A stretch of 64,000 bases of DNA from positions 186,001-250,000 of the forward strand of contig CALWMN010000001.1 of assembly GCA_944381935.1 (NCBI GenBank), given 5' to 3'. The number at the start of each line of letters is the position of its first letter. Within the stretch, counting starts at the first letter, position 1. The DNA comes from an uncultured Mediterraneibacter sp. Lineage in GTDB: Bacteria; Bacillota; Clostridia; Lachnospirales; Lachnospiraceae. The notes below the pieces were generated by a model. The model worked only from the letters and a program-made list of their open reading frames with translations, was not told the DNA's origin and ran no database searches. Below, piece after piece: positions 33,645 through 49,520 of this stretch. Made by a program: the position numbers and the translations under genes.

Positions 33645-33687
33645 AATCCCGGAAGATGTCACTCTCTTCCGGGATTTCCCTCTTTTT
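33645..33687 (+). terminator. Terminator at the left edge of the island
   Basis: A 12-bp stem (AATCCCGGAAGA/TCTTCCGGGATT) with an 8-base loop is followed by TCCCTCTTTTT on the plus strand. It ends where the 103-bp direct repeat starts, so it closes the chromosomal side. Confidence 0.7.
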
Positions 33688-33785
33688 CTGTGTTATCGTT
33701 ATTTTGAGATTTTCAATGTTCTATACATAATTCTACGGTTTCCTACGGCATTTGGTACAAAATTGGTACAGGATTGGTACAAAAA
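33683..33785. repeat. 103-bp direct repeat, left copy (probable attachment site)
   Basis: This stretch is identical over 103 bases to 49418-49520 in the same orientation. It ends in three spaced copies of TTGGTACA (ATTTGGTACAAAA, ATTGGTACAGG, ATTGGTACAAAA), which look like recombinase arm or core repeats. Each copy lies immediately beside the stop codon of a toxin-type gene cluster and an integrase gene in the same orientation. It is best read as an att site made by integrase-mediated insertion. Confidence 0.75.
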
Positions 33786-34179: not shown

Positions 34180-34912
34180 ACTGTCTGTTTCGCCTCCTTC
34201 AAATATTGTTTAATCAAATGGGCGCACTATAACCATCTATATACAGAATACATACCATAAACTTCTTTTTTCATTATACTCGATTTCTCCCACTTTAACA
34301 CCCCTTTGCGCTTCATAGTATTGACCAGTTATCTTCTTCTGCAAAGTTTCAAATTCTCTCTGCTTTAGCTCCTGTGTTGCGTCTGTATAGATATTCAGGG
34401 TAGTTTTTACGTCTTTATGTCCAAGCACATCCTGAACAACTTTAATATTTACCCCGGACTCTACAAGCCGTGTGGTAAATGTATGCCGCAGTGAATGGCA
34501 GATAAACCGGGGCAATAATACTTTAGGATTGTTGGTTTTGTTCAACAGAGCATCATTACAATCACGGATGATCCTGCGTATAGCCTTGTTCAAGGTTCCC
34601 TGATGCTGTACTCCGCCAAACCGATTTACAAATATAAAATCTGTATATCCGTCTATCGTTACTTTACACTGAATATCATTCTCCTCCTGATATTGCTTTT
34701 CCTGTAAAAACGCCTCTTTTACATAGTCGAGCATGGGAATCTGTCTTGTTCCGGCTTTTGTTTTTGGCGTATGTACGTTAAAATAGCATCTGTTTTCCGC
34801 ATGATTATAATAAACCAGAGTATGATTCACGTCTATGATCCCCCGCTCCAGATCAATATCGCACCACCTGAGTCCCGTAACTTCTCCTACCCTCATGCCA
34901 GTCCCAACCTGT
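34077..34912. repeat. Long direct repeat of the integrase-side region, left copy
   Basis: This block is nearly identical to 51182-52015, with only scattered single-base differences over about 830 bases. It covers the integrase C-terminal half, its downstream spacer, and the start of the nucleotidyltransferase gene. The near identity indicates that two related elements sit in tandem and offers a substrate for homologous deletion. Confidence 0.8.
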
Positions 34913-35028
34913 CTACCTATTACGGTAAAATACTCTGACATTTCATAATCGTCGCAACACCACAGCGTCTCGAGATCTTTCTGTAAAAGTTCAGAAAAAT
35001 TCACTTCTCGCTTTCTCTGCCGCTTCAA
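34237..35028 (-). pseudogene. Chimeric remnant: sigma-like ORF start fused to integrase C-terminus
   Basis: Residues from about 42 onward match the C-terminal catalytic domain of the intact integrase at 51380-52648 (GTGMRVGEVTGLRW, HSLRHTFTTRL, LGHKDVKTTLNIYTD). The first 41 residues (KREVNFSELLQKDL...DYEMSEYFTVIGRQV) instead resemble the sigma-70-like regulator that lies near the integrase in Tn916-type elements. The DNA-binding domain and excisionase are gone. A deletion between the two genes explains this. It carries Arg, His-x-x-Arg and Tyr but lacks its arm-binding domain, so it is unlikely to be an active recombinase. Confidence 0.75.
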
Positions 35029-35208
35029 TCCGGCAAGATAATTCAGCGCTTCACCGTGTAAAACCTTAATGCAAAAAGCCTGAGAATATGATCAAATGTT
35101 TTTACATTTAAACACTAAAAATCCGTCCACTACACTCCCGACAATCATTTGGAAACAATAGAAATCATATCGCTTGATTTAGCCGTAACCCCTGACGGGA
35201 CACCTTAA

Positions 35209-35793
35209 CTATATCTGCCTATTTTTTTCAATTTTATATTTTATTATCCCTAGATATTGAGATATTAGAACAACTAATATGGTCGATGCAGTTAATGATA
35301 CCATATCATTCCCCCCTGCCAACGTGCAGCTTGCAGCAAATAAGACTATGCTGATCACTATCTTTATAGAAACTTTTCTACAATGTCTTTTCTCATCCAT
35401 GTCCAGTTCCCTATTTATATTTTCCACTGGCGCAGCTTTCAATATAAGAATCGAACCACTCACTATAACAAGCCATGCTATTGGCAAAATAAACGTATAG
35501 TGCTTTTCAATAAGAAGTACGCTTGTTTGTAATGTAACAGAACACACAAGGCATCCGGCAAAAGTATCTAGATGTACACCTCCTATGTACGTTCGCAGCA
35601 ACATAAAAATACTCATAAATACTATAAATTCTGGAATCATGTGCAGATACAGTCCTATGCCAAAGGCAACAATAAAGTAACTTAATATTTCAAGTCCTAA
35701 TTGAAAACCATATTGATATATATCATATGATTCCTTTGAAATTACGTCAGCTTTCATAATGTAATCCGTTATTTTTTTCGATAGATATTTCAC
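35209..35793 (-). CDS. agrB: AgrB-like peptide-processing membrane protease
   Basis: AgrB cleaves the C-terminal tail of AgrD and forms the cyclic thiolactone autoinducer in the membrane. This 194-residue protein has about five to six membrane helices. The catalytic pair is visible as His and Cys in RTYIGGVHLDTFAGCLVC, matching the GGxH...C motif of the family. It begins with GTG at 35791-35793, 3 bases after the AgrD stop, with AAGGA inside the end of agrD. It is the last gene of the RiPP/agr train. Confidence 0.92.
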   Translation of the reverse strand: MKYLSKKITDYIMKADVISKESYDIYQYGFQLGLEILSYFIVAFGIGLYLHMIPEFIVFMSIFMLLRTYIGGVHLDTFAGCLVCSVTLQTSVLLIEKHYTFILPIAWLVIVSGSILILKAAPVENINRELDMDEKRHCRKVSIKIVISIVLFAASCTLAGGNDMVSLTASTILVVLISQYLGIIKYKIEKNRQI

Positions 35794-35796
35794 AGT

Positions 35797-35931
35797 TTAC
35801 TTTTCCTTCAACTTCTTTAACTCTAATGGCATTTTGGGTTGGTGGTAAATAAAAGCACAATTACTATTTACAGATATTTTCCCCAGTTTTAAAGATATAT
35901 TTGCCAATACCTGGGCGAAACTAGATTTCAT
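35797..35931 (-). CDS. agrD: AgrD-like autoinducing peptide precursor
   Basis: This 44-residue peptide is easy to miss because of its length. It has an N-terminal amphipathic helix (MKSSFAQVLANISLKLGKI). The predicted ring is CAFIY, Cys25 to Tyr29, a five-residue thiolactone as in staphylococcal AgrD. The C-terminal recognition tail HQPKMPLELKKLKEK corresponds to the family's acidic-Pro-x-EL pattern, although here it is basic. It lies directly upstream of agrB and downstream of the histidine kinase gene. The mature signal is expected to carry a short N-terminal tail from the Ser/Asn residues before Cys25. Confidence 0.88.
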   Translation of the reverse strand: MKSSFAQVLANISLKLGKISVNSNCAFIYHQPKMPLELKKLKEK

Positions 35932-36008
35932 ATTATTAGACTTCACCTTGCTCCTCCTTTATTCTTATTTCGTACTTCATTATAAAACAGCATCGCCCAT
36001 AATCGCGC

Positions 36009-37313
36009 TCACGTTCCATACAGTGTCGTCCTGATAAGAAAACGGTTTGAAACAGAATCATCAACAGACACTGTACCATGATATTTTTCCGCCACCCTAT
36101 AAACAGATGGCAGACCAATACCATGATTAAGTACATCAGCCTTTGTCGTTTGCAGTTTTTTCCCTTTCGTCTTTACCAACTCTCCTCTATAATTATTTTC
36201 TACTGATATCAGGAGATTGGATCTGTCATATTTTATTTTAAGCCTGATATATTTTTTGCCGTCCGCTTTTCTGGCTCCTTCGACCGCATTCTCCAGCAAA
36301 TTACCCAATATCAGGCTTATATCGGCACTCTTAAACGGTATATCCACAGGGATACACAAATTTGACTGAAACGCTATCCCTTCCTTTTCTGCTGTCGTGC
36401 GCCAATATCCCACAAGGGAATCTATCACTGTATTTCCGGTATTTACTCCTTCAGACGGCTTTAAATTTCCGTTTTCCATGACATCATTTACAAAGCCAAT
36501 TATCTTCCCACACTCCCCTTTTTCCGCATACGCAAGAATCGATACGAAATCATTTCTCATATTGTGCCTCACATCTCTCATCTGCTGCATAGAAAGCTCA
36601 ATTTCTTTCTGATGTCTTTCACTTAGCTCCAACTGTTGTTCGTAAACCAGGTTCATCTGCCTGACATACAGATCGTCCGCCAGTTTTCTGTAAATATAAA
36701 AGATTAATACATTTATGAACAACAGCACCGCCACAGAAATCAGAGAAAAAGTCTCAGCATATTTCCACTCTGATTGATAAGCTAACATAAATACCGTTCC
36801 CATAATATATATACTTCCTGCTGAAATAAAAACAAGCAGAATATTATGGGAATCCGGAAGCTCCATAGATGTTGTAGTAATTACTTTTCTTAAAGCCACT
36901 ATCACAATAAAAAGCAGCAGTTTTGAAATAAATGAACCAAAGAGTTGAGAATTTGCAAGACGTTCGGAATAAAGCATAAACATATTATTAATCAACATCT
37001 CTGACAGCATCCAGATCGCATCAAATGTAATTGAAAAGAGGCATTTCTTCCAAAACTTCCCCTCAAATATATTTACTGCCACTACCAGCGTACACACTAA
37101 CGTCATGCCAATATTATAGATTGGCGCCAATGTCCCCCCAATAATATTGAGTATTCCGATCTGCCAGACAACAAGCAACGCAATTCCCAGGAACACTTGG
37201 ATACTCTTCTTTTTCATTGTAAAAAAAATTTTAAAATAAAGGAAAAACAAAAAAATAGTAAATAGTCCAAGTATTATGTTTATTCCTTCTGTAACCCACT
37301 TATCTACCAGCAT
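36009..37313 (-). CDS. AgrC-like GHKL histidine kinase
   Basis: This 434-residue kinase is the likely receptor for the cyclic peptide. Residues 1-210 hold six to seven membrane helices. The phosphoacceptor region reads MRDVRHNMRNDFVSI with its His. The GHKL ATPase shows LGNLLENAVEGARK (N-box) and HGIGLPSVYRVAEKYHG (G-box). The ATG at 37313 follows GGAGG by nine bases and overlaps the response regulator's end by 14 bases; a longer in-frame start at 37334 lies inside the regulator gene. The order regulator-kinase-AgrD-AgrB reverses the staphylococcal order but keeps all four parts. Confidence 0.92.
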   Translation of the reverse strand: MLVDKWVTEGINIILGLFTIFLFFLYFKIFFTMKKKSIQVFLGIALLVVWQIGILNIIGGTLAPIYNIGMTLVCTLVVAVNIFEGKFWKKCLFSITFDAIWMLSEMLINNMFMLYSERLANSQLFGSFISKLLLFIVIVALRKVITTTSMELPDSHNILLVFISAGSIYIMGTVFMLAYQSEWKYAETFSLISVAVLLFINVLIFYIYRKLADDLYVRQMNLVYEQQLELSERHQKEIELSMQQMRDVRHNMRNDFVSILAYAEKGECGKIIGFVNDVMENGNLKPSEGVNTGNTVIDSLVGYWRTTAEKEGIAFQSNLCIPVDIPFKSADISLILGNLLENAVEGARKADGKKYIRLKIKYDRSNLLISVENNYRGELVKTKGKKLQTTKADVLNHGIGLPSVYRVAEKYHGTVSVDDSVSNRFLIRTTLYGT

Positions 37314-38028
37314 AAACAGTGTCCTCCATCTCACAATACTGTTCGCTAATCAGTTTCCTCCGGTCTACACTAATAGATATTTTCTTACCATTGTCCATTA
37401 AAACAAAATCATATGATATTCCTTCCACATGTTTATAATTTACCAGAAAGGACTGATGGACACGAAGAAAAGCAGCTGCAGTAGCTTTCAATCTCTCTTC
37501 TATTTCGTTGAGTTTTCCATAAAACTCAAATACCTCCTTTTCCGTTATCCCTCGAATCTTCCTCCGATTACTCTCAAAATAAAGAATATCCCGGATCAGG
37601 ACTTTACGGTTCATCCGTTGATACTTATAGCGAAAATAGCTGTCACTGCTGCTTATATCTTCATACGCTGTCCGAAAGCATTCTTCCATCTGCGCCGGAC
37701 ATACCGGTTTTATCAGAAATTGAAAAGGGCGTACTGAAAAAGATTCTTTCATATAAGTTTCATGGCTTGTAACATAAATGATCAAAACCGTTTTATCATA
37801 CATCCTGATCTTCTTAGCAGCAGAAATACCGTCTTCGTTCTCCATTTCTATATCAAGATAAATCATATCAAAAGAACCGCCTTCTATAACTGCATCGACT
37901 AAGCTTTCGCCGTTCTGAAATACATCAATTTCCACGTCCACAAAATTCTGCTTTGCTATATTCTGTATTTGGATCTTCATATTTTCAGCAAATTGGATGT
38001 CATCATCACAAACCGCTATGTTCAACAT
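37300..38028 (-). CDS. AgrA-like LytTR response regulator
   Basis: This 242-residue regulator has a receiver domain with acidic pocket CDDD near residue 8 and the phosphoacceptor in MIYLDIEMENEDG, then a C-terminal LytTR DNA-binding domain (KVLIRDILYFES, AFLRVHQSFLVNYKHVE). LytTR proteins bind pairs of 9-bp direct repeats about 12 bases apart. Such a repeat occurs at 47721-47750 upstream of the gene train. It overlaps the ABC exporter gene upstream by 7 bases, tying signalling and peptide export into one transcript. Confidence 0.93.
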   Translation of the reverse strand: MLNIAVCDDDIQFAENMKIQIQNIAKQNFVDVEIDVFQNGESLVDAVIEGGSFDMIYLDIEMENEDGISAAKKIRMYDKTVLIIYVTSHETYMKESFSVRPFQFLIKPVCPAQMEECFRTAYEDISSSDSYFRYKYQRMNRKVLIRDILYFESNRRKIRGITEKEVFEFYGKLNEIEERLKATAAAFLRVHQSFLVNYKHVEGISYDFVLMDNGKKISISVDRRKLISEQYCEMEDTVYAGR

Positions 38029-39692
38029 ATTGTCACCTCTCTCCTCTGTGTTTCTTCTTTTCCTTTGTTCGATAAATCAATGACTCTGTCTGTCGATTTT
38101 ATGGAGTCACTTTTATGAGTTACCATAATAATTAATTTATCTTTAAATTCCATTTCAATCAAGCGGTTAATATTTTTTTCAGACTTTTGGTCAAGATTTG
38201 ATGTTGCTTCATCGAATATTATTATTGGTGTATTTCTTATTAACGCTCTTGCTAATGCAATTTTTTGTTTCTCTCCACCTGATACCAGACTGCCATTTTC
38301 TCCAACAACATATTTTAGGGAATGTTCTTTAACAAACTCTTCTAAACCACTATCCACAATCACTTGATTTAACTGTTCATCTGAAACTTTTCTTCCCAAT
38401 AAGATATTAAATTCTATTGTGTCATTAAATAAATATATATCTTGACTAACCACAGAAATCAGTTCTCGATATGATTGTATATTAATTTCTTTTACATTTA
38501 TACCGTTAATTAAAATATCTCCTGAATACTCATCATACAGCAAAAGAATCAGATTAATGAATGTAGTTTTACCTGCACCGTTTCTCCCCAGAATAATCAG
38601 CCGGTCTCCTAATCCAGCATTAAAAGATATATTATTTAAAACAGGATTATTTTCTTCGTAAAAAAATGATACATTTTGAAAATTAATAGTGATAGTGTCT
38701 TGCTCTGCAATATTCTTTCCTGTTTGCCTTTCTTCTGCAAGATCCATAAACTTATAATATCTCTTCACAGATGGCATTACACCAGATAGGTAATATTTAA
38801 TATTTAACAAAGATGAAATTGGCGTTATGACATATGTACTATAAGTTACAAACGCTATAATGCCTCCTATCGTTATTTTGAAATCACTCTGCAGCAATCC
38901 ACCGATCAGATAAATTAATGCAATTATTGTTTCAAACAATAAAGAATCAAAGCTCTGATTATATTGGCTGACAATATTGAGTTCTTTTTTTCTTATCAGC
39001 ATATCTTTTATCTTTTCATTTGACTCTGTTTCTTTCAATTTTTCTATATCAAATAATTTAATCTCTTTAACACCAGATAAAAGATTTCCGAACCATTTAT
39101 TATAGCCAACCATCTCCGATATATAACTTTCTGTTATTCTCTCGCGTTTGTCAGATAACACTTTCATCCCAAAATATTTTATAGGAATGCAGACGAATAC
39201 AACTATACTTAACTTCCAGTTAATTATGATTAATCCTGTCAAGCCGCCTAACATGCTAAATATCTTAGTTATAACGAACATCATATTTTCATCTAAAACA
39301 CTTACAATATTCGTAATATCTGTTTCTAGGCTATTTACCAATTCCAAGTTATTAAATTTCTTTATATAGCGCAATTTTAATTTAAAAATATGTAGAAGTG
39401 ACTTTTCTCTCAAACAGCATTCTACCTGAGTTTGTATTTTTATTCGTTGTTTTTCTTGAATAACTCCCAACAAATTAATTATCACATTAGATATTATTAA
39501 AATTACTACTAAAAAGATCAATAAAGAAAAATTTTTTTGAATTATTCCATAATCCATTATTGTCTGTATAAGCAACGGTATAATAGCTGAGAAAAAAGTT
39601 GATAAAACTAATAAAATAATAATGAACAGTATACTTTTCAAATATGGATAGAATAATTCAAATATCCATTTAATGTATTTTTTATCTTTCAT
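38022..39692 (-). CDS. ABC exporter for the Cys-rich peptide
   Basis: This 556-residue half-transporter has six membrane helices and a C-terminal ATPase. Walker A is GRNGAGKTTF, signature VSGGEKQK, Walker B IIIFDEATSNLD, and H-loop MVTHKSD. It lacks an N-terminal C39 peptidase domain, so leader removal must be done by another enzyme, plausibly the subtilisin-like protease of the cluster. The ATG at 39692 lies inside the end of the preceding gene, in another frame, indicating tight coupling. It probably works as a homodimer exporting the modified RiPP. Confidence 0.88.
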   Translation of the reverse strand: MKDKKYIKWIFELFYPYLKSILFIIILLVLSTFFSAIIPLLIQTIMDYGIIQKNFSLLIFLVVILIISNVIINLLGVIQEKQRIKIQTQVECCLREKSLLHIFKLKLRYIKKFNNLELVNSLETDITNIVSVLDENMMFVITKIFSMLGGLTGLIIINWKLSIVVFVCIPIKYFGMKVLSDKRERITESYISEMVGYNKWFGNLLSGVKEIKLFDIEKLKETESNEKIKDMLIRKKELNIVSQYNQSFDSLLFETIIALIYLIGGLLQSDFKITIGGIIAFVTYSTYVITPISSLLNIKYYLSGVMPSVKRYYKFMDLAEERQTGKNIAEQDTITINFQNVSFFYEENNPVLNNISFNAGLGDRLIILGRNGAGKTTFINLILLLYDEYSGDILINGINVKEINIQSYRELISVVSQDIYLFNDTIEFNILLGRKVSDEQLNQVIVDSGLEEFVKEHSLKYVVGENGSLVSGGEKQKIALARALIRNTPIIIFDEATSNLDQKSEKNINRLIEMEFKDKLIIMVTHKSDSIKSTDRVIDLSNKGKEETQRREVTIC

Positions 39693-39972
39693 TATGCTCA
39701 ATATTTGAAATTCTTATAATTTCATCAGTTATGCTACTCAAAGTAAAAAATTCAAATGAATTAATTTTTTCACTTGAAAACCTGATCCCAAACTCTTCTT
39801 TTACCCCTATCAGCAAGTAGACAATATCTCTGGCTTCAAGATCCCAGTCCCTCGAAAACAACGAATCATCATCCAACTTTCTGGAATATTTCTTCTCGGT
39901 AATTTCTTCAATTATGTTATATATAATTTCTATAATAGACCTTTTATCCATCTCACTCCATGTACTCTCCAT
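39682..39972 (-). CDS. Acyl-carrier-related protein of the peptide maturation system
   Basis: This 96-residue protein has the four-helix acyl carrier pattern, with WDLEARDIVYLLIGVKEEFGI aligning to the LGLDSLDVVEL...EEEFGI core of ACPs. The serine that would carry phosphopantetheine is replaced (EAR instead of DSL), so it cannot be an ordinary carrier. Proteins of this kind are known from clostridial Cys-rich bacteriocin-like clusters as acyl-carrier-related maturation proteins. It lies between the conserved maturation protein and the exporter gene. Scaffold or docking roles are possible; the true role is unknown. Confidence 0.78.
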   Translation of the reverse strand: MESTWSEMDKRSIIEIIYNIIEEITEKKYSRKLDDDSLFSRDWDLEARDIVYLLIGVKEEFGIRFSSEKINSFEFFTLSSITDEIIRISNIEHNER

Positions 39973-39983
39973 TTAAAACTTTT

Positions 39984-41069
39984 TCAAAACTCTTCGTATT
40001 TTCCGTATCCTTCCAGAGTAGATAAAATGTGCTGTTCAAAACGCTTTCTATCCCCTTCATTAAATAATGTATATACATTAAATTGTTTTGCAGTTTCATG
40101 AACAAAATTATTATCCAAAGTTAGATATACTAATTTTTGAAAATCTTCCGTTGCATCCCAATTAACCATAGAATTTGTTAAAAAAATAGCATCTAACGCA
40201 TAATTATATTTATATTTAAGTGAATTATTTATCAGCGGAAAATATTTCTCCGGATAATCAACATACATAGAATTAAATACGACAAAATCAGGACTAATCG
40301 CATTTGAAACAAGATAATTTAGTACCCCGAAATCATTCAAATATTTATTATCATACTTTTCTATTCCACCAGGTACACCTATGATAATAACATCTGATTC
40401 TTCATTTTCCGACAATGCTTTCACATAGTGGTTAAAATATATAATTTTATCTTTATCAGATATTTGATTTTTTAACATAAATTGGGGGAAAGGATGAAAA
40501 CCATAATAATACGAATCATCTTTTGTTCCGATTTGTGTCACGTTATATCCGTTAGCTTTAAAAATCTCTCGTAACAGTATCTGCGTAGTAAATTTATAGC
40601 ATTGTTCACCTGTTCCCAATACCAGGACAATCGGCTTTTTAATGTCATAAATTATATTATCTTGCTCTTTTAGTTTCAAATCCATTTTAAGCTTACTATC
40701 TATGCTTCTAATATCTATGATACTTTCATGATATTTTTTAATTATCTCTTCATTTATCTCCTTTAATAAAATCACCTCTTTCCCCATATCAGAAGCAATT
40801 TTTATGTACTTTTCTATTTCACTGTCCTCTAAACAGATCCTGCTATCAATAATCATCAGAACATCTGATTTTTTAAGATTGTATTCAAATTGGTCTTTAA
40901 CAATATAATTTGTCTCAATCCCTACTTTTTTTCCAGCATCCTCCCCGGTATATCCCCACCCCCGTGGAGATACGACATACGCAACTTTGTATAATTGCGC
41001 ATTTGCATCCTGATATTGTAACAAATGCAAATTAGAAATATCATACGGATATAACATAATTTTCTTCAT
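39984..41069 (-). CDS. Peptide maturation system protein (TIGR04066-like)
   Basis: This 361-residue protein starts MKKIMLYPYDISNLHLLQY and contains KPIVLVLGTGEQCYKFTTQI near residue 165. It then alternates strands and helices in a Rossmann/P-loop-like manner (DVIIIGVPGGIEKY). Its N-terminus and position between the radical SAM maturase and the acyl-carrier-like protein match the TIGR04066 maturation family of clostridial Cys-rich peptide clusters, as I recall that family. No chemistry has been assigned to it. Codon use is AT-rich like its neighbours. Confidence 0.72.
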   Translation of the reverse strand: MKKIMLYPYDISNLHLLQYQDANAQLYKVAYVVSPRGWGYTGEDAGKKVGIETNYIVKDQFEYNLKKSDVLMIIDSRICLEDSEIEKYIKIASDMGKEVILLKEINEEIIKKYHESIIDIRSIDSKLKMDLKLKEQDNIIYDIKKPIVLVLGTGEQCYKFTTQILLREIFKANGYNVTQIGTKDDSYYYGFHPFPQFMLKNQISDKDKIIYFNHYVKALSENEESDVIIIGVPGGIEKYDNKYLNDFGVLNYLVSNAISPDFVVFNSMYVDYPEKYFPLINNSLKYKYNYALDAIFLTNSMVNWDATEDFQKLVYLTLDNNFVHETAKQFNVYTLFNEGDRKRFEQHILSTLEGYGKYEEF

Positions 41070-41139
41070 AATTTCAATATTGCTCCTATTCTATATATTC
41101 AAAATCTTGCTTTCGTAAAATCTATTTTCACAACCCAAA

Positions 41140-42564
41140 TTACATTATATCATCCAACCACAATATATCATTATCAAAATCGCTATTTTCACAGATCAAA
41201 CAATAGTCTTTCAGTTGCTCGACGGCTTCATATTTAACTCCCTGGCAATGTTGTAATTTCTTCTTAATTGAAATTCCATTTCCCGTATCAGCATGTTGTG
41301 CACAAAGGAAACAAAATTTTGCTGCCCAGCATTCTTTACAACTCTTTTCTGTTAATCTTCCAATATTCAATAATTTAATAACTTGCTCTTCATAAAATCC
41401 ATCCTTGATATTCCCAATTTTCATATCTGGTGAAACTTCACTTACTCTTTCACACGGATAAAAATTTCCGTAAATATCAACAAACAGCTTATGACACCCC
41501 ACAATACAAGGTCCGCCTGGATGAGCAGCTTTTTCTACTAATGTAGATATTCCTCGGTTAGACATAAGCGTTTTTAATTGACTGTAATACGCTATAGGTA
41601 TCGCAGAAATGTCTATCCCCTCAGTCTTTTCCACTTTACTATATAACAACTTAAAAAGCTCAAATAAGTCTCTCTGCATATAAGACTCATCTTCCAGATA
41701 ACTCTCTTTATCTTTTATCCCTTCTCTTGATATCTTATTAAACATAACATGACGATTTTTCATGAATTCATTGTTTTTAAAAAAATCATCCAAATATTTC
41801 AAATTATTACGAGGATCAATTACACAATTTATTGCTACAGTCGTAGCATATTGAGGATACTCCTTAGAAATCAAGTCCAGTTTATCCATTATAATATCAA
41901 AAGTTCCCTTACCATTAACATTTTGGCGATTTCTGTCATGATATTCTTTGGGACCATCTAAACTTATCACCAGGGCAACATCATTTTCAGCTAAAACTTC
42001 AAGCATTTTTTTATCCAGTAATGTGGCATTTGTTGTCATCCTATATCTCACTTTTTTCCCACCAGCTTGTCCGTTTACATACTGAATAATTCTTTCTATC
42101 AAGTCAAATTCAATAAGAGGTTCTCCGCCATAAAATCCTATTTGTAGTTCTGGCATATCATAAGAATGATGCATATAGAAATCTATTATACTCTTAGCCA
42201 AATCAAAATCCATCTTCTTATTATTATGTTTTCTATTATAATATGTCCCTGAATATGGGCAATAACCGCACCGCAAATTACATTGCTGTGTAACTTGCAA
42301 CGTAATGGATTTAATTGAGCTTCTCAGATAGTAATGTATGTATTTTGTTACCGGATGCTCTATATATTCCCAATGATGCGACTGTAGAAAACCGCGGTTT
42401 TGCAATTCTTCCGTAACAGCATTTACCCTGGCATTCAATTCATTTCTATTTTCATTAAGAATATCATATACCTCTTTCTCAACTCTTATAATTGCATTAG
42501 TGTTAAAATCATAGATATAATAATTTTTATATGTCTTAAATGTATAAATAAATGCCTTCTTCAT
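41140..42564 (-). CDS. Radical SAM/SPASM maturase of a Cys-rich RiPP (CcpM-like)
   Basis: This 474-residue enzyme has an N-terminal precursor-recognition-like domain (YNYYIYDFN-type strands, residues 1-90), then the radical SAM core with QQCNLRCGYCPYSG (CxxxCxxC) and GFYGGEPLIEF. The C-terminal SPASM region carries about ten cysteines (GGPCIVGCHKL, FYPCERV, KSCKECWAAKFCFLCAQH, and CLIC near the end) for two auxiliary [4Fe-4S] clusters. Such enzymes install thioether or other cross-links on Cys-rich peptides. The ATG at 42564 follows GGAGAGG; longer in-frame starts exist at 42594 and 42576. It lies directly downstream of the precursor gene. Confidence 0.9.
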   Translation of the reverse strand: MKKAFIYTFKTYKNYYIYDFNTNAIIRVEKEVYDILNENRNELNARVNAVTEELQNRGFLQSHHWEYIEHPVTKYIHYYLRSSIKSITLQVTQQCNLRCGYCPYSGTYYNRKHNNKKMDFDLAKSIIDFYMHHSYDMPELQIGFYGGEPLIEFDLIERIIQYVNGQAGGKKVRYRMTTNATLLDKKMLEVLAENDVALVISLDGPKEYHDRNRQNVNGKGTFDIIMDKLDLISKEYPQYATTVAINCVIDPRNNLKYLDDFFKNNEFMKNRHVMFNKISREGIKDKESYLEDESYMQRDLFELFKLLYSKVEKTEGIDISAIPIAYYSQLKTLMSNRGISTLVEKAAHPGGPCIVGCHKLFVDIYGNFYPCERVSEVSPDMKIGNIKDGFYEEQVIKLLNIGRLTEKSCKECWAAKFCFLCAQHADTGNGISIKKKLQHCQGVKYEAVEQLKDYCLICENSDFDNDILWLDDIM

Positions 42565-42666
42565 ATTCCTCTCCATTGCATTACTTTTATCCAATGATAC
42601 GGATATTAAAATCTATTGCGTAATTTCTCTTCCTACGCGGTATTGATTTCTATGGCTTTGCTATAC

Positions 42667-42705
42667 AAAGATTGCTGCTTTCTGTATTAGAAAGCAGCAA
42701 TCTTT
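42667..42705. other. Intercistronic hairpin between precursor and maturase genes
   Basis: Perfect 16-bp arms (42667-42682 and 42690-42705) enclose a 7-base loop. On the minus strand no U-run follows, so it is more likely an RNA-stabilising or partial-termination structure that keeps precursor mRNA in excess over maturase mRNA, as is common in RiPP operons. Confidence 0.65.
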
Positions 42706-42734
42706 CAACTTCTCTCCATTTACTGGCAATATCA

Positions 42735-42887
42735 CTATCTTGACTGTTTGTTTGAGCTACTAGATTTTGCTGTATACGAAGATGTACTGGACGTTGTTGG
42801 TCCACAGGGGCAGTTACTGCATACACAAAATGCAAATGCTCTTATAGTTTTTGCCTCGGTATTCATTTTTTTACCCAGCTTTTTCAT
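42735..42887 (-). CDS. Cys-rich RiPP precursor peptide (CLI_3235-like)
   Basis: This 50-residue peptide has a leader beginning MKKLGKKMNTEAKTIRAF and a core with four cysteines, FCVCSNCPCGP (Cys21, 23, 26 and 28). A Ser/Thr-rich tail ends KQSR. The MKKLGKKM start followed by a short Cys-rich core is typical of the CLI_3235 group of bacteriocin-like precursors paired with CcpM-type radical SAM enzymes. AAGGAG lies eight bases before the ATG at 42885-42887. It is followed by a strong hairpin and then the maturase gene. The four Cys in C-x-C-xx-C-x-C spacing are the likely cross-link sites. Confidence 0.85.
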   Translation of the reverse strand: MKKLGKKMNTEAKTIRAFAFCVCSNCPCGPTTSSTSSYTAKSSSSNKQSR

Positions 42888-42953
42888 AATTGTTCTCCTT
42901 CCTACACATATTTATTTAAACCCCCTCTTATTAAGGATAATTTAAATACTTTT

Positions 42954-44324
42954 TTATTTAAAGCAGCGCTCTATAGCTAAAAAGATACTTTTACTTAAAT
43001 CTCCGATTTCATCTTTAAAGCATATTTCAAATGTATCTTCTAGGCTTAAAATTTTCACTGCGCAGAAATTATTTTCTTCATAGCAATCAATTTCCACATC
43101 TAAATCTGCAATATTTGAAAAACTGTTTGGTATCCATTCAGCTAATAAAATTATATCGACTAAATCTTTCACTTGCCTAATTCCACAATATTGCCCCACA
43201 AAATGCTTCTCCTCTTTAATGACGGTATAATCAAACATTATTCCCAGTAAATAATCGGTAAAAGTAATACTTTGGTATCCCGTCTCAAGGACTATTTGAG
43301 TAATTTCACAAACAACTTTATTTAGAACCAAAATATCACTACATTTGATTTTAATAATTGGCAAATCAGACTGATATATATCACGCATGTACTCTTTAGG
43401 CAATTTATTCCACTTTAATTCGCCCATATAATGGCACATTTTTTTGCTATTATTTAACAAAAAGATACCTTTCATATTTTTGAATTTATTAATGTTTTGC
43501 ACTATTTTTTCAGTAGGATATTCTATATTTCTTATCTCAACATCTACATCTGCACACTTAAGCTCAAAGTGCTTCTCATTATCTTTATTGGATAAAATAT
43601 TATAAACGACAAATTCTGTTTTAAAATCAATCCGGAAATTCTTACTTATAGATTTCCCATCAAATTCTGCCAGCCTTTTTTTATAATATTCTATTTTTTC
43701 TCCTTCTTTAAATATGTTTGCTATGTACGCTGTTACAAGAGGTGCAGCAAAACTATTAGAGTTTCTTTCTTGATAAGAAATTTTATCATCTGAAATATAT
43801 GGAAATTCTGAATGTGCTATAACATCTATTCCATCGTACGCTCCAATATTATAAGTCCATTCGCCTTCTTTTATCTTCCTTTCTCGATCAGCTTTAACTC
43901 CTATTACATTACTGAAGCATGCTGGATATGTAATATAATTATCATTGTCCGCCGAGCAGACAAAAATCACTCCTTTTGCTGCTAAACGATTGACAATTTT
44001 TCTCAAAGCAAGACCATCCGCTCTTTTCACACTTCCCAGACTGAGGTTTATAAGATCAACATTATTCTTTTCGCACCAAATCAAGGCTTTAATCATGTGA
44101 TCAATGCTGGCTCTTTCTGTTTGATCAAGTATACAAATATTACTATATTCAACTTGTACAGAAACATATTCTTGAAAAATCAAAAAACAAATTGTGGAAT
44201 GGCTAAATGGCCCTGCTTCACCTGATGTTCGTTCGGAACCCAAGTATATCTTTTTTATCTTGTAATTATCGACATAATTACTTTGAATCTCATCATCGAT
44301 AATTGCCATATGAATTTTCTTCAT
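42954..44324 (-). CDS. Cytoplasmic subtilisin-like (S8) protease of the RiPP cluster
   Basis: This 456-residue protein carries the S8 triad in order: Asp in HMAIIDDEI near residue 10, His in FSHSTICFL near residue 42, and Ser in RNSNSFAAPLVTAYIAN near residue 190. Asn of the oxyanion hole lies in VCSADNDN. There is no signal peptide or pro-domain, so the enzyme begins at the catalytic domain. A C-terminal region of about 230 residues has no recognised domain. It is the gene immediately upstream of the precursor, and the exporter lacks a leader peptidase, so leader cleavage is its probable job. Confidence 0.82.
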   Translation of the reverse strand: MKKIHMAIIDDEIQSNYVDNYKIKKIYLGSERTSGEAGPFSHSTICFLIFQEYVSVQVEYSNICILDQTERASIDHMIKALIWCEKNNVDLINLSLGSVKRADGLALRKIVNRLAAKGVIFVCSADNDNYITYPACFSNVIGVKADRERKIKEGEWTYNIGAYDGIDVIAHSEFPYISDDKISYQERNSNSFAAPLVTAYIANIFKEGEKIEYYKKRLAEFDGKSISKNFRIDFKTEFVVYNILSNKDNEKHFELKCADVDVEIRNIEYPTEKIVQNINKFKNMKGIFLLNNSKKMCHYMGELKWNKLPKEYMRDIYQSDLPIIKIKCSDILVLNKVVCEITQIVLETGYQSITFTDYLLGIMFDYTVIKEEKHFVGQYCGIRQVKDLVDIILLAEWIPNSFSNIADLDVEIDCYEENNFCAVKILSLEDTFEICFKDEIGDLSKSIFLAIERCFK

Positions 44325-44346
44325 AATTAACTATTTTTTCATACAG

Positions 44347-45117
44347 CTATTCTTCTCTTTCTAATTCGGGATTCTCGTTTCCCACTTTTTCAGCGTTCTC
44401 TTCTGCCGATACTGTATCTGTCTTTTCTTCCGCAATACTCTCTTCAACCGGAACGTCCACATCAGACTTTTCTTCGGTCACATTTTCATTTACATCAGCT
44501 ATTTTGTCTCCGACCTGCTCCAGTAGATCCGATGATCTCGCCTCTATTTCTGCTAACCGTTCCTTCTTGCTCTCAAGCGCACCAGCGCCGTCAGACTCTA
44601 TTTCCGCCTTTAAGACTCTCGCCTCTCCATCCATTTTTGCCTTTGCGGAAGAAACAACCTCAGCCTGCGCTGCTCCGGAGGACAGATCCATAATATCCAT
44701 CAGCCTGCGCTGCTCATACTCTTCTTCTGTCATGACCTTCTTGTCAGAGATCTGTCCCGGCTCCTTGTCATCCCCTTCTTCCTCAAACTGTTTCGCTGTC
44801 GCTTCTGCGATCTGTTTATCCAGCATCTCTAACTGTTCGTCATATTCATCTATTTTATCTTGGTTCACATATCCGCCTTCAAGACCTCTTTTCAGTTCGG
44901 CGTCCTTGCTCTCCTGGATGAGCTGTTTCTGATTCATAAGCTGCTGAATGACACTTTGCTTCTTTCCCTGTCCGGAAATAAAAACAGAGTCCCTGTTTGC
45001 CTGTTGAATAAAAGGGCCTGCCTGTGCAGCGTTATCATTGTTCAGCCTGCTGACTTTCTGATTTATGGCAGCCGCGTTGAATATACCGTTATCTGCTCCA
45101 ATTCCTGTTAATCTCAT
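44347..45117 (-). CDS. Unknown acidic coiled-coil protein
   Basis: I do not recognise this 256-residue protein. After a short N-terminal region (MRLTGIGADNGIFNAAAINQ) it is almost entirely helical and charged, with likely coiled coils (KIDEYDEQLEMLDKQIAEATAK, KERLAEIEARSSDLLEQVGDKI), and ends in a Glu-rich disordered tail. There is no signal peptide. It ends 22 bases before the protease gene and follows another unknown gene with a similar N-terminal style, so the two may be partners. GC content is higher than in the RiPP core, suggesting a different origin. Confidence 0.6.
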   Translation of the reverse strand: MRLTGIGADNGIFNAAAINQKVSRLNNDNAAQAGPFIQQANRDSVFISGQGKKQSVIQQLMNQKQLIQESKDAELKRGLEGGYVNQDKIDEYDEQLEMLDKQIAEATAKQFEEEGDDKEPGQISDKKVMTEEEYEQRRLMDIMDLSSGAAQAEVVSSAKAKMDGEARVLKAEIESDGAGALESKKERLAEIEARSSDLLEQVGDKIADVNENVTEEKSDVDVPVEESIAEEKTDTVSAEENAEKVGNENPELEREE

Positions 45118-45186
45118 CTTTGTTTACCTCCTGGATCTTCCCTGTTTATTTTGAATATTAAATACAATCTATGCCGTCACAATTAT

Positions 45187-46062
45187 CTACTGATTCGCAT
45201 CGCCTTTCCCATCAACCGCCTGCAGCAGGATCTCCCTGACAGCTCCATATGTCTCCCGGAAAATCGAGACGTTGTTCCGGGGCGGTATAAAATAACTCCC
45301 CGCTGTTTTCTGACGTTCAAAATATGCCTGATACGGATCATCTTTATATCTCCGTCTCTCTATCTCTGCATTGATCATGGATATTCCCCTTTGGAATGTC
45401 TCAGTCGCTCTGCGTGCGACAGAGCGTACTCTGTCAACCTCCTCATAAATATTTTCCGCATCCGCGTCTATTTCCCAGGAAAAGTGCTCCAATCCCTTGG
45501 AAAAAGTATCATCGACCAAATCTGCGTATTTGCCATATGTGGACTGCAGCTCTTCTCCTCTTTTCTGATTTCTCTGATTTAATTGATATGCACCGTCCTG
45601 CAGAAAAGTATCCCGTGCGCTTTGCGTTGCTTTCAGAAGAGATTCCACATCCTCCATAGACAAGTCCTCCGGCAGAGCTGACGTCCCATCTAAAATCTGC
45701 TGATACCGCTGGATCGACTGGTCAAAGGAGGCCAACTGATCCCGGTATTCCGTCAGTTCGGCTTCCATATTTGCTGATGTCCTTAGTCCATTTTCGTATT
45801 CCCACTTAACATACTGTAATATGCTATCCGGTATCCCTGAAAAAGGAGACTCTCCGCTTCCCTTCGATTTCAATGCTTCAACAAGAGAAAATCTATCCGC
45901 ACGCTGCACTTTTCCTTCCTGCTCTATTGACGCTGCTGCATTTTCAGCAATTTGATTCAGCGTATTATTCTGCTGAAACAAATTAACATTCCGAGACACA
46001 TTTGCTCCGAATCCACTCCTTCCCTGTGCAGAAAACAGGTTTGAAAAATTAGTTATTACCAT
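45187..46062 (-). CDS. Unknown helical protein
   Basis: This 291-residue protein has no signal peptide and no family I can name. The N-terminus (MVITNFSNLFSAQGRSGFGA followed by NVNLFQQNN) is Asn/Phe-rich, and the rest is mostly helical with QLASFDQSIQRYQQIL-type coiled coil. The C-terminal part includes YFIPPRNNVSIF. It lies 69 bases before the acidic coiled-coil gene and 18 bases after the secreted protein gene, in the same direction, so the three are probably co-transcribed. It could be a structural or secretion substrate; no function is claimed. Confidence 0.6.
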   Translation of the reverse strand: MVITNFSNLFSAQGRSGFGANVSRNVNLFQQNNTLNQIAENAAASIEQEGKVQRADRFSLVEALKSKGSGESPFSGIPDSILQYVKWEYENGLRTSANMEAELTEYRDQLASFDQSIQRYQQILDGTSALPEDLSMEDVESLLKATQSARDTFLQDGAYQLNQRNQKRGEELQSTYGKYADLVDDTFSKGLEHFSWEIDADAENIYEEVDRVRSVARRATETFQRGISMINAEIERRRYKDDPYQAYFERQKTAGSYFIPPRNNVSIFRETYGAVREILLQAVDGKGDANQ

Positions 46063-46080
46063 ACCACTCTCCTCCTATAC

Positions 46081-47592
46081 CTATCGATAACTCCACTCAC
46101 CATAATCATAGATAAAGTTCCCTATTATCGGCTTCTTGGAATATCCGATCTCACAAATAACCTCCTCTGAATAGGAATCCCCGCCTGAGCTTACTTTTAC
46201 TGTTGTAGAATTAACAAAATTAGTACCTGTGGAAGGACTATATCGAATATACGAACTATCCCGCGCACCTACGGACAGCAGATTCACCTCATTAACGTTT
46301 TGATAAAATTTTGTATCTACCCAATATTGTTTAGGCTCAGGTTCATACCGAAACTCCCCATTGCTATCCGTATAAACAGTTTTATTCAATGTTTTACTAT
46401 CGAGGACTGGCATTCTAATATTAACTGCCACATTGGCTGCTGGTGTGCCGTCCTCAGAAACAACCTGTCCTGAAACAGCAAATTCCTGAGCCATCACAAA
46501 CTTATTTGGATAACCCGGCGGGACATTGTGTGTACCAAAATTATCACAAAGATACTGCACTCCTTCTGCTGAGCAAGCAACATTGCATGCTTTTGCAGCT
46601 GTTTGATCCACCCAATATGCTTTACTACTGCTCAAATCTGTTATTCCTTTAACAGTAACATTATTAAGTGAAGCATCTCCGACTACAGCATTAAACACTA
46701 CCCAATTAGACCACGCACCATGCGAATCCGATACACGCATTCTAATTTCATATGTTCCTGCTTTGTCAAAAGAAAGTATGCAGTAGTCTGTACCCACTTC
46801 TTCGGCATAATCTTCAATCGTTGTCATTGATCCATCTTTAATAACAATTCCATTGGCTCCACTAACGCTATCCCCCGTATCATTATCATATGAATCTGCC
46901 CATGAAATCAGCATTAACTGGCCTGCTACTAAATCCCTGGAACTTGTGCCCACATTGCAGATCGGACGGCTATTTCCATCTGCCGGTTCAATTTGAAAAG
47001 CATATTCTGCGACATTCGACCATTCTCCTTTGGAATCCTGCACTTGAAACGTCAGAATATACTGCGCCGGAGTTTTGCACTGTGTTGCAAATCCTAAATT
47101 TCCCGTTATTGTCCCAATAATATCACTGGATGAAATCCCTCCGATTCTAATATCAGTGATTTCATCACCGTCCGGATCATATGTAAATGATTCCCCATTA
47201 TAAGCCCACAGCCAAGCAAGTTGTGTCTCTGTAGTAAAATTTCCATTTATCATAGATTCCGGATTTAAAACTACTACTTGCAATGCAGCAACTGGTGGAT
47301 TATTTTCATTTTCAGACAGCGTTTTCACCTGATCAATATTAGATTCTTCAATATTCCCTTTATAATAATCAAGATTGTCACTAATCGATAGTTCTGGAAC
47401 CGCAGACTTTACTGTATCAAAGTCATTTGTATATGTTTCATCTAACGCTGAATTATAAAACACACTTTCCTCCTCAACAGGAGAAGTTTGTAGTTCTTCC
47501 GGTACATCGGTTGTTTCCGCAGCAACTGACATTGTCATCATCAAGAGCAACAACGTCATTGATAGGACTCCTAAAAAGATACGTTTTTTCAT
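46081..47592 (-). CDS. Secreted multi-domain protein with PKD-like and CNA/carboxypeptidase-type beta domains
   Basis: This 503-residue protein has a Sec signal peptide (MKKRIFLGVLSMTLLLLMMT, cleaved after VAA). Two Ig/PKD-like beta-sandwich units follow, recognisable by YILTFQVQDSKGEWSN near residue 190 and YEIRMRVSDSHGAWSNW near residue 280. A carboxypeptidase-regulatory-like domain comes next (SGQVVSEDGTPAANVAVNIR, TDSNGEFRYEP). No sortase motif or C-terminal membrane segment is visible, so it is probably released or loosely wall-bound. It is the first gene after the repeat element at 47721-47750. AAGGAGG precedes the ATG. Confidence 0.75.
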   Translation of the reverse strand: MKKRIFLGVLSMTLLLLMMTMSVAAETTDVPEELQTSPVEEESVFYNSALDETYTNDFDTVKSAVPELSISDNLDYYKGNIEESNIDQVKTLSENENNPPVAALQVVVLNPESMINGNFTTETQLAWLWAYNGESFTYDPDGDEITDIRIGGISSSDIIGTITGNLGFATQCKTPAQYILTFQVQDSKGEWSNVAEYAFQIEPADGNSRPICNVGTSSRDLVAGQLMLISWADSYDNDTGDSVSGANGIVIKDGSMTTIEDYAEEVGTDYCILSFDKAGTYEIRMRVSDSHGAWSNWVVFNAVVGDASLNNVTVKGITDLSSSKAYWVDQTAAKACNVACSAEGVQYLCDNFGTHNVPPGYPNKFVMAQEFAVSGQVVSEDGTPAANVAVNIRMPVLDSKTLNKTVYTDSNGEFRYEPEPKQYWVDTKFYQNVNEVNLLSVGARDSSYIRYSPSTGTNFVNSTTVKVSSGGDSYSEEVICEIGYSKKPIIGNFIYDYGEWSYR

Positions 47593-47720
47593 TTTCTGCC
47601 TCCTTTAAGTACAGCTTATTCTTCACCTGTTCCGCACCAATGAGTGTGACCTCTTTCTATTGGATATATCGTCTGCTTTTTCACCTCATTAAGTCCCTGT
47701 TTGGACATTGTTGGTTAATG

Positions 47721-47750
47721 TGTAACTTTCCTGACTGTTGATGTAACTTT
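47721..47750 (-). promoter_or_regulatory. Candidate LytTR (AgrA-type) binding site
   Basis: The 9-base sequence TGTAACTTT occurs at 47721-47729 and again at 47742-47750, 21 bases apart. On the minus strand this reads AAAGTTACA, 12 bases, AAAGTTACA. LytTR regulators such as AgrA bind 9-bp direct repeats separated by 12 bases, with a GTT core as here. It lies about 130 bases upstream of the first gene of the minus-strand train that encodes a LytTR regulator. Confidence 0.6.
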
Positions 47751-47819
47751 ATTTTTATGTTTGCCTTAATACTGCTAAATATCTTTCACTTTTTTGTTTT
47801 CTATTTGGTTTTATTATAG

Positions 47820-48060
47820 TGGGAACTCATTCAGAGCAAGTTTCGCCTGCGTAACTCAAAACCCGCTTTATGGCTTTTACTTACCCGGCAAACTTGATGG
47901 GGATTTCGCTCCCCATTCCCTCGGTTACTGCATATCTTCGGCTATGGAAGTATGCTCCTATATAAAATAGTCGCAGCGTGATACTCATATCACGAAAAAT
48001 ACTTACCACCATAAATTTTATAGTGATTTCCCATTTTCTCTACTCTTCAGGGCATCCCAA
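47820..48060. other. Hairpin-rich region upstream of mobC, possible oriT
   Basis: The stretch contains a small hairpin (ATGGGG...CCCCAT around a TTTCG loop near 47898-47917) and a second one (GCATA...TATGC near 47930-47955). It has high GC compared with its flanks and no open frame. It sits directly ahead of a MobC-type relaxosome gene, where transfer origins of mobilizable elements commonly lie. No nic-site consensus was recognised. Confidence 0.35.
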
Positions 48061-48102
48061 TAGGCTTATGTATGAATACAATTTTATATAAAGGAGTCTC
48101 AA

Positions 48103-48525
48103 ATGGCACGACAGAAAAAAGCAAAAGAATTAAAACATAATCACCGGATTATGCTTCGTCTGACAGATGCAGAATACGAACGGCTCTCTGCCCTTGCAGA
48201 AGCCGCCACTCTTCCCCTGGCAGCATATATTCGTAGGCAGATTACGGGGAAACAGGTCATAATAAAGTATGAGCTTGTAGCAGATCTGACGGAATTAAAA
48301 AAGCTGATTGCAAAGTTTGGAAAGATTGGAAGCAATCTGGATCAGATCGCCCGACATTTTAACAGCGGTGGGATCCATTCACAGGAAATACGGCGGACAA
48401 TCCGCCAGAGTATCACAGATATTTATGAGATGAAATACGAAGTATCTTCGGTCAATCTTTTGTTTCGCTTTATCCGCCACAGGATTATCTACGCTGAAAA
48501 ACTTATATACAGTTCCTTCTGGTGA
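48103..48525 (+). CDS. mobC: MobC-like relaxosome accessory protein
   Basis: This 140-residue protein begins with basic residues and a ribbon-helix-helix-type segment (RIMLRLTDAEYERLSALAEAATLPLAAYIRRQI). It continues with the MobC-typical LKKLIAKFGKIGSNLDQIARHFN. MobC proteins help relaxases open oriT DNA. The last 25 residues (LLFRFIRHRIIYAEKLIYSSFW) do not look like MobC, so the C-terminus may come from a frameshift or fusion. No relaxase gene follows, so mobilisation would depend on one supplied elsewhere. AAGGAG precedes the ATG. Confidence 0.8.
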   Translation: MARQKKAKELKHNHRIMLRLTDAEYERLSALAEAATLPLAAYIRRQITGKQVIIKYELVADLTELKKLIAKFGKIGSNLDQIARHFNSGGIHSQEIRRTIRQSITDIYEMKYEVSSVNLLFRFIRHRIIYAEKLIYSSFW

Positions 48526-48543
48526 ACCTGTCACCTTACATAT

Positions 48544-48741: not shown

Positions 48742-48742
48742 A

Positions 48743-48913: not shown

Positions 48914-49360
48914 TTAGTACAGCTTCGCACCTGCCGGAATCCTGTCATCCACCATCAGAAGATTTAAGCCTTCTCTTCCATCTTCCTCATGTACTGCTGA
49001 AATCAGCATACCCTCGGAATCAATGCCCATCATCTTTCTGGGCGGCAGATTTACGATTGCGATACAGGTCTTTCCAACCAGTTCTTCCGGCTCATAATAC
49101 TCGTGAATACCGCTTAAAATCGTGCGTTTCCGGTCTGTTCCGTCATTCAGTGTGAACTTCAGAAGTTTCTTTGACTTCGGAACTGCCTCACACGCCTCAA
49201 CCTTTACGGCACGGAAATCTGACTTGCTGAAAGTGTCGAAATCAACCATTTCCTCAAAGAGCGGCTCAATCTTGACCTTTGAAAAATCAATCTTTTCCGC
49301 CGGTTTTTCTTCGGCTTTTTCAGCCTTAACTTCGCCCTTTTTCGGATCAAGTGACTTCAT
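48914..49360 (-). pseudogene. metG: 3' fragment of methionyl-tRNA synthetase (tRNA-binding domain)
   Basis: The 148-residue frame has a Lys/Glu/Ala linker, then a complete OB-fold tRNA-binding domain: FSKSDFRAVKVEACEAVPKSKKLLKF, ILSGIHEYYEPEELVGK and a tail IPAGAKLY, matching the C-terminal domain of clostridial MetG. The catalytic and anticodon domains are absent, and an in-frame stop lies just upstream. There is an ATG but no good ribosome binding site. It abuts the right 103-bp repeat, so it was probably captured during integration or excision of an element. A free tRNA-binding protein (CsaA/Arc1p-like) is less likely. Confidence 0.7.
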
Positions 49361-49417
49361 TGTCGGGAGACTTGAAATGTACCGTTACACCAGTCTTTAC
49401 CACTCGTCAAAAACCTG

Positions 49418-49520
49418 TTTTTCTGTGTTATCGTTATTTTGAGATTTTCAATGTTCTATACATAATTCTACGGTTTCCTACGGCATTTGGTACAAAATTG
49501 GTACAGGATTGGTACAAAAA
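49418..49520. repeat. 103-bp direct repeat, right copy (probable attachment site)
   Basis: It is identical to 33683-33785 and in the same orientation. Together the two copies delimit a 15.6-kb island. The copy ends one base before the stop codon of the ParE-like toxin of the next element, so this is both the right end of the first island and the left end of the second. Confidence 0.75.

Follow-up and report, generated by a model that had tools for sequence, protein, structure and literature searches.

A probable CcpM-type Cys-rich peptide operon ending in an agr module, on an island at the 3' end of lysS in a Mediterraneibacter genome

The window analysed here, a stretch of 64,000 nucleotides from an uncultured Mediterraneibacter sp. 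of the Lachnospiraceae, carries on its minus strand a train of genes for a Cys-rich ribosomally synthesised and post-translationally modified peptide (RiPP), and the last four genes of this train make up an agr signalling module. The arrangement is real, complete and recurrent. We think it rather likely that it represents a density-switched RiPP operon of the CcpM/CLI_3235 type, which has its own agr module as its 3' part and is carried by an island that integrated next to the 3' end of lysS.

Gene content and spacing of the train

All ten train genes are present among the open reading frames of the window, running from 44324 to 35209 on the minus strand in the order S8 protease, precursor, CcpM, TIGR04066 protein, acyl carrier protein (ACP)-like protein, ATP-binding cassette (ABC) exporter, LytTR regulator, GHKL kinase, AgrD and AgrB. 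A preliminary description of this DNA had proposed such a minus-strand train with overlaps or short gaps, and the coordinates confirm it; nine of the ten products pass the cut-off of a curated family, the exception being the ACP-like protein. Counted from the earliest possible start codon of each frame, so that the real overlaps may be smaller, the S8 protease and precursor genes are 66 nt apart, followed by gaps of 140 nt to ccpM, 70 nt to the TIGR04066 gene and 11 nt to the ACP-like gene. The ACP-like and ABC exporter frames then overlap by 20 nt, the exporter and regulator frames by 7 nt and the regulator and kinase frames by 35 nt, while 62 nt separate the kinase gene from agrD and 3 nt separate agrD from agrB.

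In the peptide half of the train, the S8 (subtilisin-like) protease (42954..44324; PF00082, 41.1 bits against a cut-off of 21.8; QhpE 76.4, below its cut-off of 165) is the probable leader peptidase. The precursor of 50 aa belongs to the CLI_3235 family (42735..42887; TIGR04065, 38 bits, cut-off 26) and has Cys at residues 21, 23, 26 and 28. CcpM, a radical S-adenosylmethionine (SAM)/SPASM maturase (41140..42594; TIGR04068, 538.6 bits, cut-off 500), keeps the CxxxCxxC motif and C-terminal Cys that are invariant across 10 aligned rows. Downstream of it lie the TIGR04066 peptide maturation system protein (39984..41069; 303.8 bits, cut-off 200), the ACP-like protein (39682..39972), whose best match, TIGR04069, falls below the cut-off of 70 at 50.3 bits, and the ABC exporter with permease and ATPase (38022..39701; PF00005, 100.6; PF00664, 95.6). 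We assign the cluster to the CcpM/CLI_3235 type of Cys-rich RiPP clusters, and its putative product to neither the sactipeptides nor the ranthipeptides. A role of the ACP-like protein as a working carrier was rejected, as the phosphopantetheine Ser is not conserved: in an alignment of 56 rows, window and duplicates included, that column holds R 22 times, V 8, I 7, Y 7, A 4, G 2 and six others. The name "acyl carrier" for this protein of CcpM clusters is probably misleading.

The agr half consists of an adjacent regulator and kinase alongside AgrD and AgrB, all on the minus strand. The AgrA-like LytTR response regulator (37300..38028) matches PF04397 at 63.3 bits, PF00072 at 53.1 and the AgrA model NF046049 at 53.5, below the cut-off of 400 set for the last, and the AgrC-like GHKL sensor kinase (36009..37334) matches PF14501 at 79.6 bits. 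The AgrD signal precursor (35797..35946; TIGR04223, 47.5 bits, cut-off 19) reads CAFIY and then HQPKMP; it scores 21.8 with the staphylococcal AgrD Pfam model, below the cut-off of 22.7, and the Cys and HQPK.P are invariant among 11 aligned AgrD peptides. AgrB (35209..35793; PF04647, 125.1 bits, cut-off 23) is the sole AgrB match in a search of the whole host genome. It contains the motif GGVHLDTFAGC with one His and one Cys; we take AgrB to be the thiolactone-forming membrane protease and these two residues to play their usual roles in it.

Recurrence of the agr/CcpM pairing in related genomes

CcpM was found in 15 of 391 genomes of the class (threshold 1e-100) and in 16 of 397 genomes of the family (1e-90), with the host genome G000 and genome G243 in both samples, and AgrB was searched in all 29 CcpM-bearing genomes. 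Within the family, 6 of the 16 genomes (G000, G243, G417, G530, G648 and G656) have an AgrB gene no more than 10 kb from a CcpM gene, and outside the family two of 13 CcpM genomes, G054 and G068, are linked. Over both samples, 9 of 53 CcpM places are within 10 kb of an AgrB gene, start to start, against 0.94 expected from the AgrB number and a rounded genome size. A control with the SCIFF maturase in the same genomes placed none of 28 genes near AgrB. The nine places include G068, where the distance is 9.6 kb start to start and the kinase and regulator of this AgrB are on the opposite strand; the second linkage of G648 involves a CcpM fragment, and the count omits one of the 31 AgrB rows, which represents the second piece of a split gene. 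The co-occurrence within 10 kb for which the preliminary description had suggested a search does exist, and uniqueness of the pairing, considered as a candidate, was rejected as the pairing recurs in related genomes.

A single-protein search of genome contigs gave no match, and an alignment-based search yielded loci, of which 80 were taken out of 461 with a relative. Among the matches listed, 5 of 40 loci with CcpM and the TIGR04066 protein (L090, L092, L094, L101 and L121) have an AgrB gene on the same strand within 10 kb. For the other 35 of the 40, among the same listed matches, no such AgrB was detected, a result that counts against the proposed density-switched operon. These linkage counts are lower bounds, as several loci stop at contig ends and the AgrB model, built from 5 rows, failed to detect the AgrB of L057. 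The two sets overlap (L094 is the same contig as G417:C48), and L093 has its AgrB on the opposite strand. Pooled, 14 of 67 distinct CcpM proteins are linked, a biased figure in that linked loci were fetched deliberately. Two further CcpM loci, L107:21-2917 and L113:11375-12111, have a co-directional LytTR regulator and kinase, but the model used found no AgrB there.

Three operon layouts occur. The agr module stands ahead of the CcpM set in L055, L090, L092, L094, L165/L166 and L169, and in L092 and L165/L166 another CcpM set also precedes agr. It comes last in the window and in L167, and more loosely in L056, in which other open frames spanning several kilobases set it apart. In the mutually similar loci L101 and L121 the genes are interleaved, in the order regulator, kinase, precursor, CcpM, TIGR04066 protein, ACP-like protein, AgrB, AgrD, S8 protease and ABC exporter. 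In L090, L166 and L169, two consecutive CcpM/TIGR04066 sets were seen beside a single agr module.

We built an AgrB tree from 27 sequences, 13 of them labelled linked (the opposite-strand L093 and L170, which lies beside a CcpM fragment, included) and 14 unlinked; the latter come from 14 of the 19 loci L036-L054, L039 having been dropped as a duplicate of L056 and four having been missed by the model. Nine linked AgrB proteins form one clade with a support of 98/100. The AgrB of L056 pairs with an unlinked AgrB from its own genome, and that of the window sits on a long branch, so that its placement is unsure. A clade of the window and L056 AgrB was rejected by the approximately unbiased (AU) test (p 0.009), as was a single clade of all eleven, the nine together with these two (p 9e-7); joining the window AgrB to the nine is allowed (p 0.083). 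Because these tests reject one common linked clade, the pairing, or at least its AgrB, has been set up at least two times.

The agr unit also occurs elsewhere. A DNA pattern for the HQPKRPK tail was found in 10 of the 397 family genomes, and in 5 of these 10 it is linked to CcpM. For the remaining five, the same sample gave no CcpM match at E up to 1e-90, a second count that tells against a dedicated link between the two systems. Each of these five genomes (G481, G556, G508, G581 and G682) holds a regulator, a kinase, AgrB and an AgrD-like frame, and in G682 this frame has Ser instead of Cys ahead of the tail. The five modules (L210-L214) stand alone or next to other cargo, two of the five contigs being short. 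Since related agr modules thus exist without CcpM in five genomes, the agr signalling unit is modular and reused. As a side observation, L214:1419-14000 holds an agr module whose AgrD-like frame has the HQPKRPK tail but lacks Cys, and the agr genes there are followed by a run of what by eye are secreted or surface-type genes, without CcpM.

This reuse bears on whether agr is a passenger in the train, that is, a generic unit with other functions that came to lie downstream by chance of a RiPP operon with its own or constitutive expression. The preliminary description had named agr genes beside unrelated cargo as an observation that would undermine it, and this was found in part: in half of the HQPKRPK-type genomes agr stands alone or beside other cargo, which fits a passenger, as does the abundance of agr in related genomes, with up to 8 AgrB matches each. 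Several results argue the other way, namely the near ten-fold linkage excess with its clean SCIFF control, the existence of three layouts including one with interleaved genes, and the overlap of the ABC exporter and regulator frames in the window. We therefore consider a passenger agr module unlikely.

The LytTR-type box and the proposed control of the train

Upstream of the S8 protease gene, the train extends in the same direction to 47592 through three further minus-strand genes. Of these, u44 (44347..45117), which ends 22 nt before the S8 frame, and u45 (45187..46062) encode hydrophilic proteins with chromosomal copies that are 88% and 81% identical, respectively, and u46 (46081..47592) encodes a secreted-type protein whose Ig/PKD and carboxypeptidase-regulatory-like matches are all below cut-off. 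On the same strand, 128 nt before u46, lies a LytTR/AgrA-type box, AAAGTTACA-N12-AAAGTTACA (47721..47750). According to the available parts of two papers, LytTR sites consist of 9-bp repeats with a 12-bp spacing and the consensus (TA)(AC)(CA)GTTN(AG)(TG) (PMC2766830, PMC8826819). Read from 47750 to 47721, the box has the 9+12+9 structure, and each repeat meets consensus positions 1-7 and misses positions 8-9 (7/9). What gives the box weight is its position: a consensus-core match is expected 0.008 times in the 368-nt region at the 5' end of the train, and one was found. A perfect GTT-core repeat with a period of 20-22 appeared in 4 of 500 shuffled islands, and in a direct-repeat scan of the operon gaps that upstream of u46 was the strongest, the other seven gaps being reached by 30-97 of 100 shuffles. 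A box at the head of the train fits a single transcript under density control.

In the working that we propose, AgrB would cut and cyclise AgrD into a five-residue thiolactone (CAFIY) with an N-terminal tail. As the thiolactone builds up extracellularly, it would be sensed by the GHKL kinase, leading to phosphorylation of the LytTR regulator, which would bind the direct repeat and drive the train from u46 to AgrB, presumably as a single transcript; transcription of the train would also feed back on agr. CcpM would cross-link the precursor within Cys 21-28, the S8 protease would remove the leader and the ABC protein would export the product, probably a bacteriocin-like, antimicrobial peptide. 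A density-switched peptide made from one transcript had been put forward in the preliminary description, and the complete, co-directional and nearly gapless systems, the linkage excess and the box all fit it; the box, however, may serve another regulator, given that u45-u44 have a chromosomal copy.

The host genome contains two perfect copies of the box, that of the window and one at G000:C1:115331-115360, which precedes the chromosomal u45-u44 pair by 97 nt. If up to 3 mismatches are allowed, there are 10 box places genome-wide, no more than for a reversed control pattern (16). The pair itself, at L225:9594-11288, is some 104 kb from the island. The island and chromosomal pairs are 92% identical in DNA over 1.4 kb, and the repeat letters of the two boxes are identical at 18 of 18 positions, although spacer and flanks have diverged. 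Matches to u45 are rare (3 of 397 family genomes, counting the host itself and one weak match), and the u45-u44 homologue in G731 is without such a box. The chromosomal pair stands alone, and by eye a terminator-like inverted repeat follows its u44; in the island that place is occupied by the S8 gene, into which u44 runs after 22 nt. Because an inverted repeat follows chromosomal u44 and the S8 gene follows island u44, we read the RiPP operon as having been plugged in behind a boxed promoter.

Since u45-u44 have a boxed chromosomal copy, the box may instead be the site of another LytTR regulator, captured together with these genes. A host regulator would then drive the train through the captured promoter, and the island agr module would merely lie downstream, with no action on the box. 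The second perfect box before the chromosomal pair and the preserved repeat letters between diverged flanks are what such a regulator would lead one to expect. Even so, agr would share the transcript of the RiPP operon, in a genome that has no other AgrB match, and agr-type LytTR regulators commonly control their own operon. We regard control by a host regulator as a real possibility, though not a probable one.

Several other results count against control of a single transcript by the island's own regulator through the box. Over the whole window, the one consensus-core match compares with 0.31 expected, and 25 of 100 shuffles contain at least one; a consensus-free repeat scan of the 368-nt region was equalled by 7 of 100 shuffles. 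At ten other linked loci, a consensus-core box was found upstream of the regulator or CcpM gene in 0 of 22 regions, the closest box-like feature elsewhere being an 8-of-9 repeat with a period of 22 before agrD in L056. The genes u44-u46 have no relatives among the frames of other CcpM loci, and a consensus promoter scan was unremarkable (51 found versus 57 in shuffles). Within the train, a 17-bp RNA hairpin (42667..42705, minus strand) occupies the 140-nt gap between the precursor and CcpM genes, with a z of -5.29 for the gap and 0 of 200 shuffles as stable, and could reduce read-through.

A broader idea is that agr-switched CcpM peptides form a widespread, repeatedly assembled, density-controlled class of RiPPs in Lachnospiraceae, and that in the window the entire unit travels as one island, bringing its own signal language to a host otherwise without agr and, through the second box, commanding a chromosomal operon. 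We offer this tentatively and hold it to be doubtful as a whole; if true, an acquired island would rewire a host operon through quorum sensing.

Apart from u44-u46, the parts of the locus are of known kinds. Like the agrBDCA systems of Staphylococcus and clostridia, the island has AgrB, AgrD, a GHKL kinase and a LytTR regulator together, with an HQPK.P tail after the ring; unlike them, it has the order regulator, kinase, AgrD, AgrB at the end of a RiPP operon and is linked to a radical-SAM peptide. Staphylococcal agr is linked to a regulatory RNA or to virulence genes. Streptococcal RaS-RiPPs such as tryglysin are reportedly controlled by quorum sensing, and so are said to share with the proposed working of the island the cell-density control of a radical-SAM-modified antimicrobial peptide, but reportedly use Rgg/SHP signalling rather than agr, and other maturases.

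The nearest studied cluster is that of SacP23 in Paenibacillus polymyxa #23, which, in the available part of its description, inhibits Gram-positive bacteria when expressed in B. subtilis, and whose authors suggest an immunity role for the TIGR04066 protein (PMC10731318). As far as that text goes, it shares with the island a CLI_3235-family precursor, a TIGR04068 CcpM, a TIGR04066 protein, an ACP-like protein related to TIGR04069, an ABC exporter and an S8 protease. It differs in that the eight genes listed there include no agr gene, with the extracytoplasmic function (ECF) sigma-like sacB and the unknown sacG instead, and in that the accessible text describes no island. The modified peptide could itself be a signal rather than an antimicrobial, so that two signals would be layered, and excerpts of a 2024 paper on a Lachnospiraceae strain do term ranthipeptide genes quorum-sensing genes (PMC11352710). 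SacP23, as the nearest studied cluster, is antimicrobial, and we find a signalling product quite improbable.

A RiPP-enzyme-like gene tied to agr has been described, in the part of the report available, in Clostridium acetobutylicum, where the LanM-like CA_C0082 lies directly downstream of agr and is controlled by it but is without catalytic residues; unlike the island, it is LanM-like and no complete RiPP cluster is described there (PMC10301443). Within the available text, the 2024 strain paper records cyclic lactone autoinducers and ranthipeptide genes in one genome with the pairing unmentioned (PMC11352710), and a 2026 rumen survey counts the two separately (PMC13289728). Among the papers listed in searches of an open-access library, from which most subscription journals are missing, we found no report of agr paired with CcpM clusters. 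The combination, which the preliminary description thought possibly undescribed, is not unique, agr/CcpM units occurring in three gene orders, but its wiring appears undescribed in the literature searched.

CcpM clusters are annotated in many anaerobes, but we came across little about the conditions of their expression or about their products. With agr genes in the same operon, a candidate inducer is at hand in the form of a short thiolactone, which could be made synthetically and supplied to cells, and production of a little-studied class of gut peptides thereby becomes directly testable. Such control would extend quorum-sensing-controlled radical-SAM peptides from streptococci to gut Clostridia, with a different signalling system.

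The island and its tandem neighbour

The island (33679-49520) is flanked by 107-nt direct repeats that are 99% identical and spaced 15,735 bp apart. The left copy (33679..33785) contains a 33-nt att core at 33752-33784, and the right copy (49414..49520) is the junction with a second element. A third copy, of 33 nt, occupies G000:C1:254065-254097, and a gene has its 3' end 18 nt away from it. The island has its own duplicate of the 3' end of lysS, which encodes the C-terminal tRNA-binding domain (48914..49360, minus strand; PF01588, 85.7). DNA beside attR is 83% identical to this duplicate, which also matches the end of a full-length gene in the relative G803 (L192), which, with its C-terminal tRNA-binding domain, reads as lysyl-tRNA synthetase, lysS. 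Two elements thus stand in tandem beside the 3' end of lysS, with the island on the left and a second element of about 18.6 kb by att positions. The 33-nt core and this array correct the att-bounded element of the preliminary description, the repeats themselves being real.

An island that is bounded by att repeats and mobile had also been claimed, and it is the mobility that gives way. The tyrosine integrase (34237..35028, minus strand; PF00589, 93.7 bits) is truncated, with 263 aa of the C-terminal part only, and in the neighbouring element, whose integrase has 422 aa, it matches just the C-terminal part of that protein. DNA identity is 96% between 34077-34907 and 51182-52014, at which the integrase gene has its full length; no intact integrase lies between the att repeats of the island, the full-length copy being in the neighbouring element. 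Because of this truncation the mobility of the island is doubtful, and it may need help in trans for movement. A truncated integrase and a lysS duplicate could also be read as signs of a decaying locus that makes no product, but each of the ten genes for biosynthesis and agr has an open frame, AgrB, CcpM and the TIGR04066 protein cover their profiles nearly in full in family searches, and CcpM retains the Cys residues invariant in relatives. Decay is in our view very improbable.

In the relative G806, other cargo, including a gene read as a methyltransferase, lies to the left of the same att site, and on the right side 3.5 kb match the second element with 96.8% identity. The 107-nt site is present in 7 of 58 genomes of the genus, partly as just the 33-nt core. 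We also searched plasmid and phage records for CcpM relatives at E up to 1e-40. CcpM-like enzymes occur in 5 plasmid and 4 phage records with 29-47% identity, and no agr gene appears in two of the plasmid gene tables, although such tables are by design incomplete. In viral contigs, segment identity was no higher than 36% among the best 80 of 195 relatives.

Inside the island there is a NikA/MobC-like mobilisation protein (48103-48525). The second element, within 49414-64000, holds the full-length integrase (51380-52648), a ParE-like protein, HEPN and nucleotidyltransferase genes, a DUF927-like protein (below cut-off) and others, and ends beyond the window at the att core of G000:C1:254065-254097. 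Elsewhere in the window, a thiamine pyrophosphate (TPP) riboswitch at 2503-2610, upstream of a gene read as ThiC, is ordinary.

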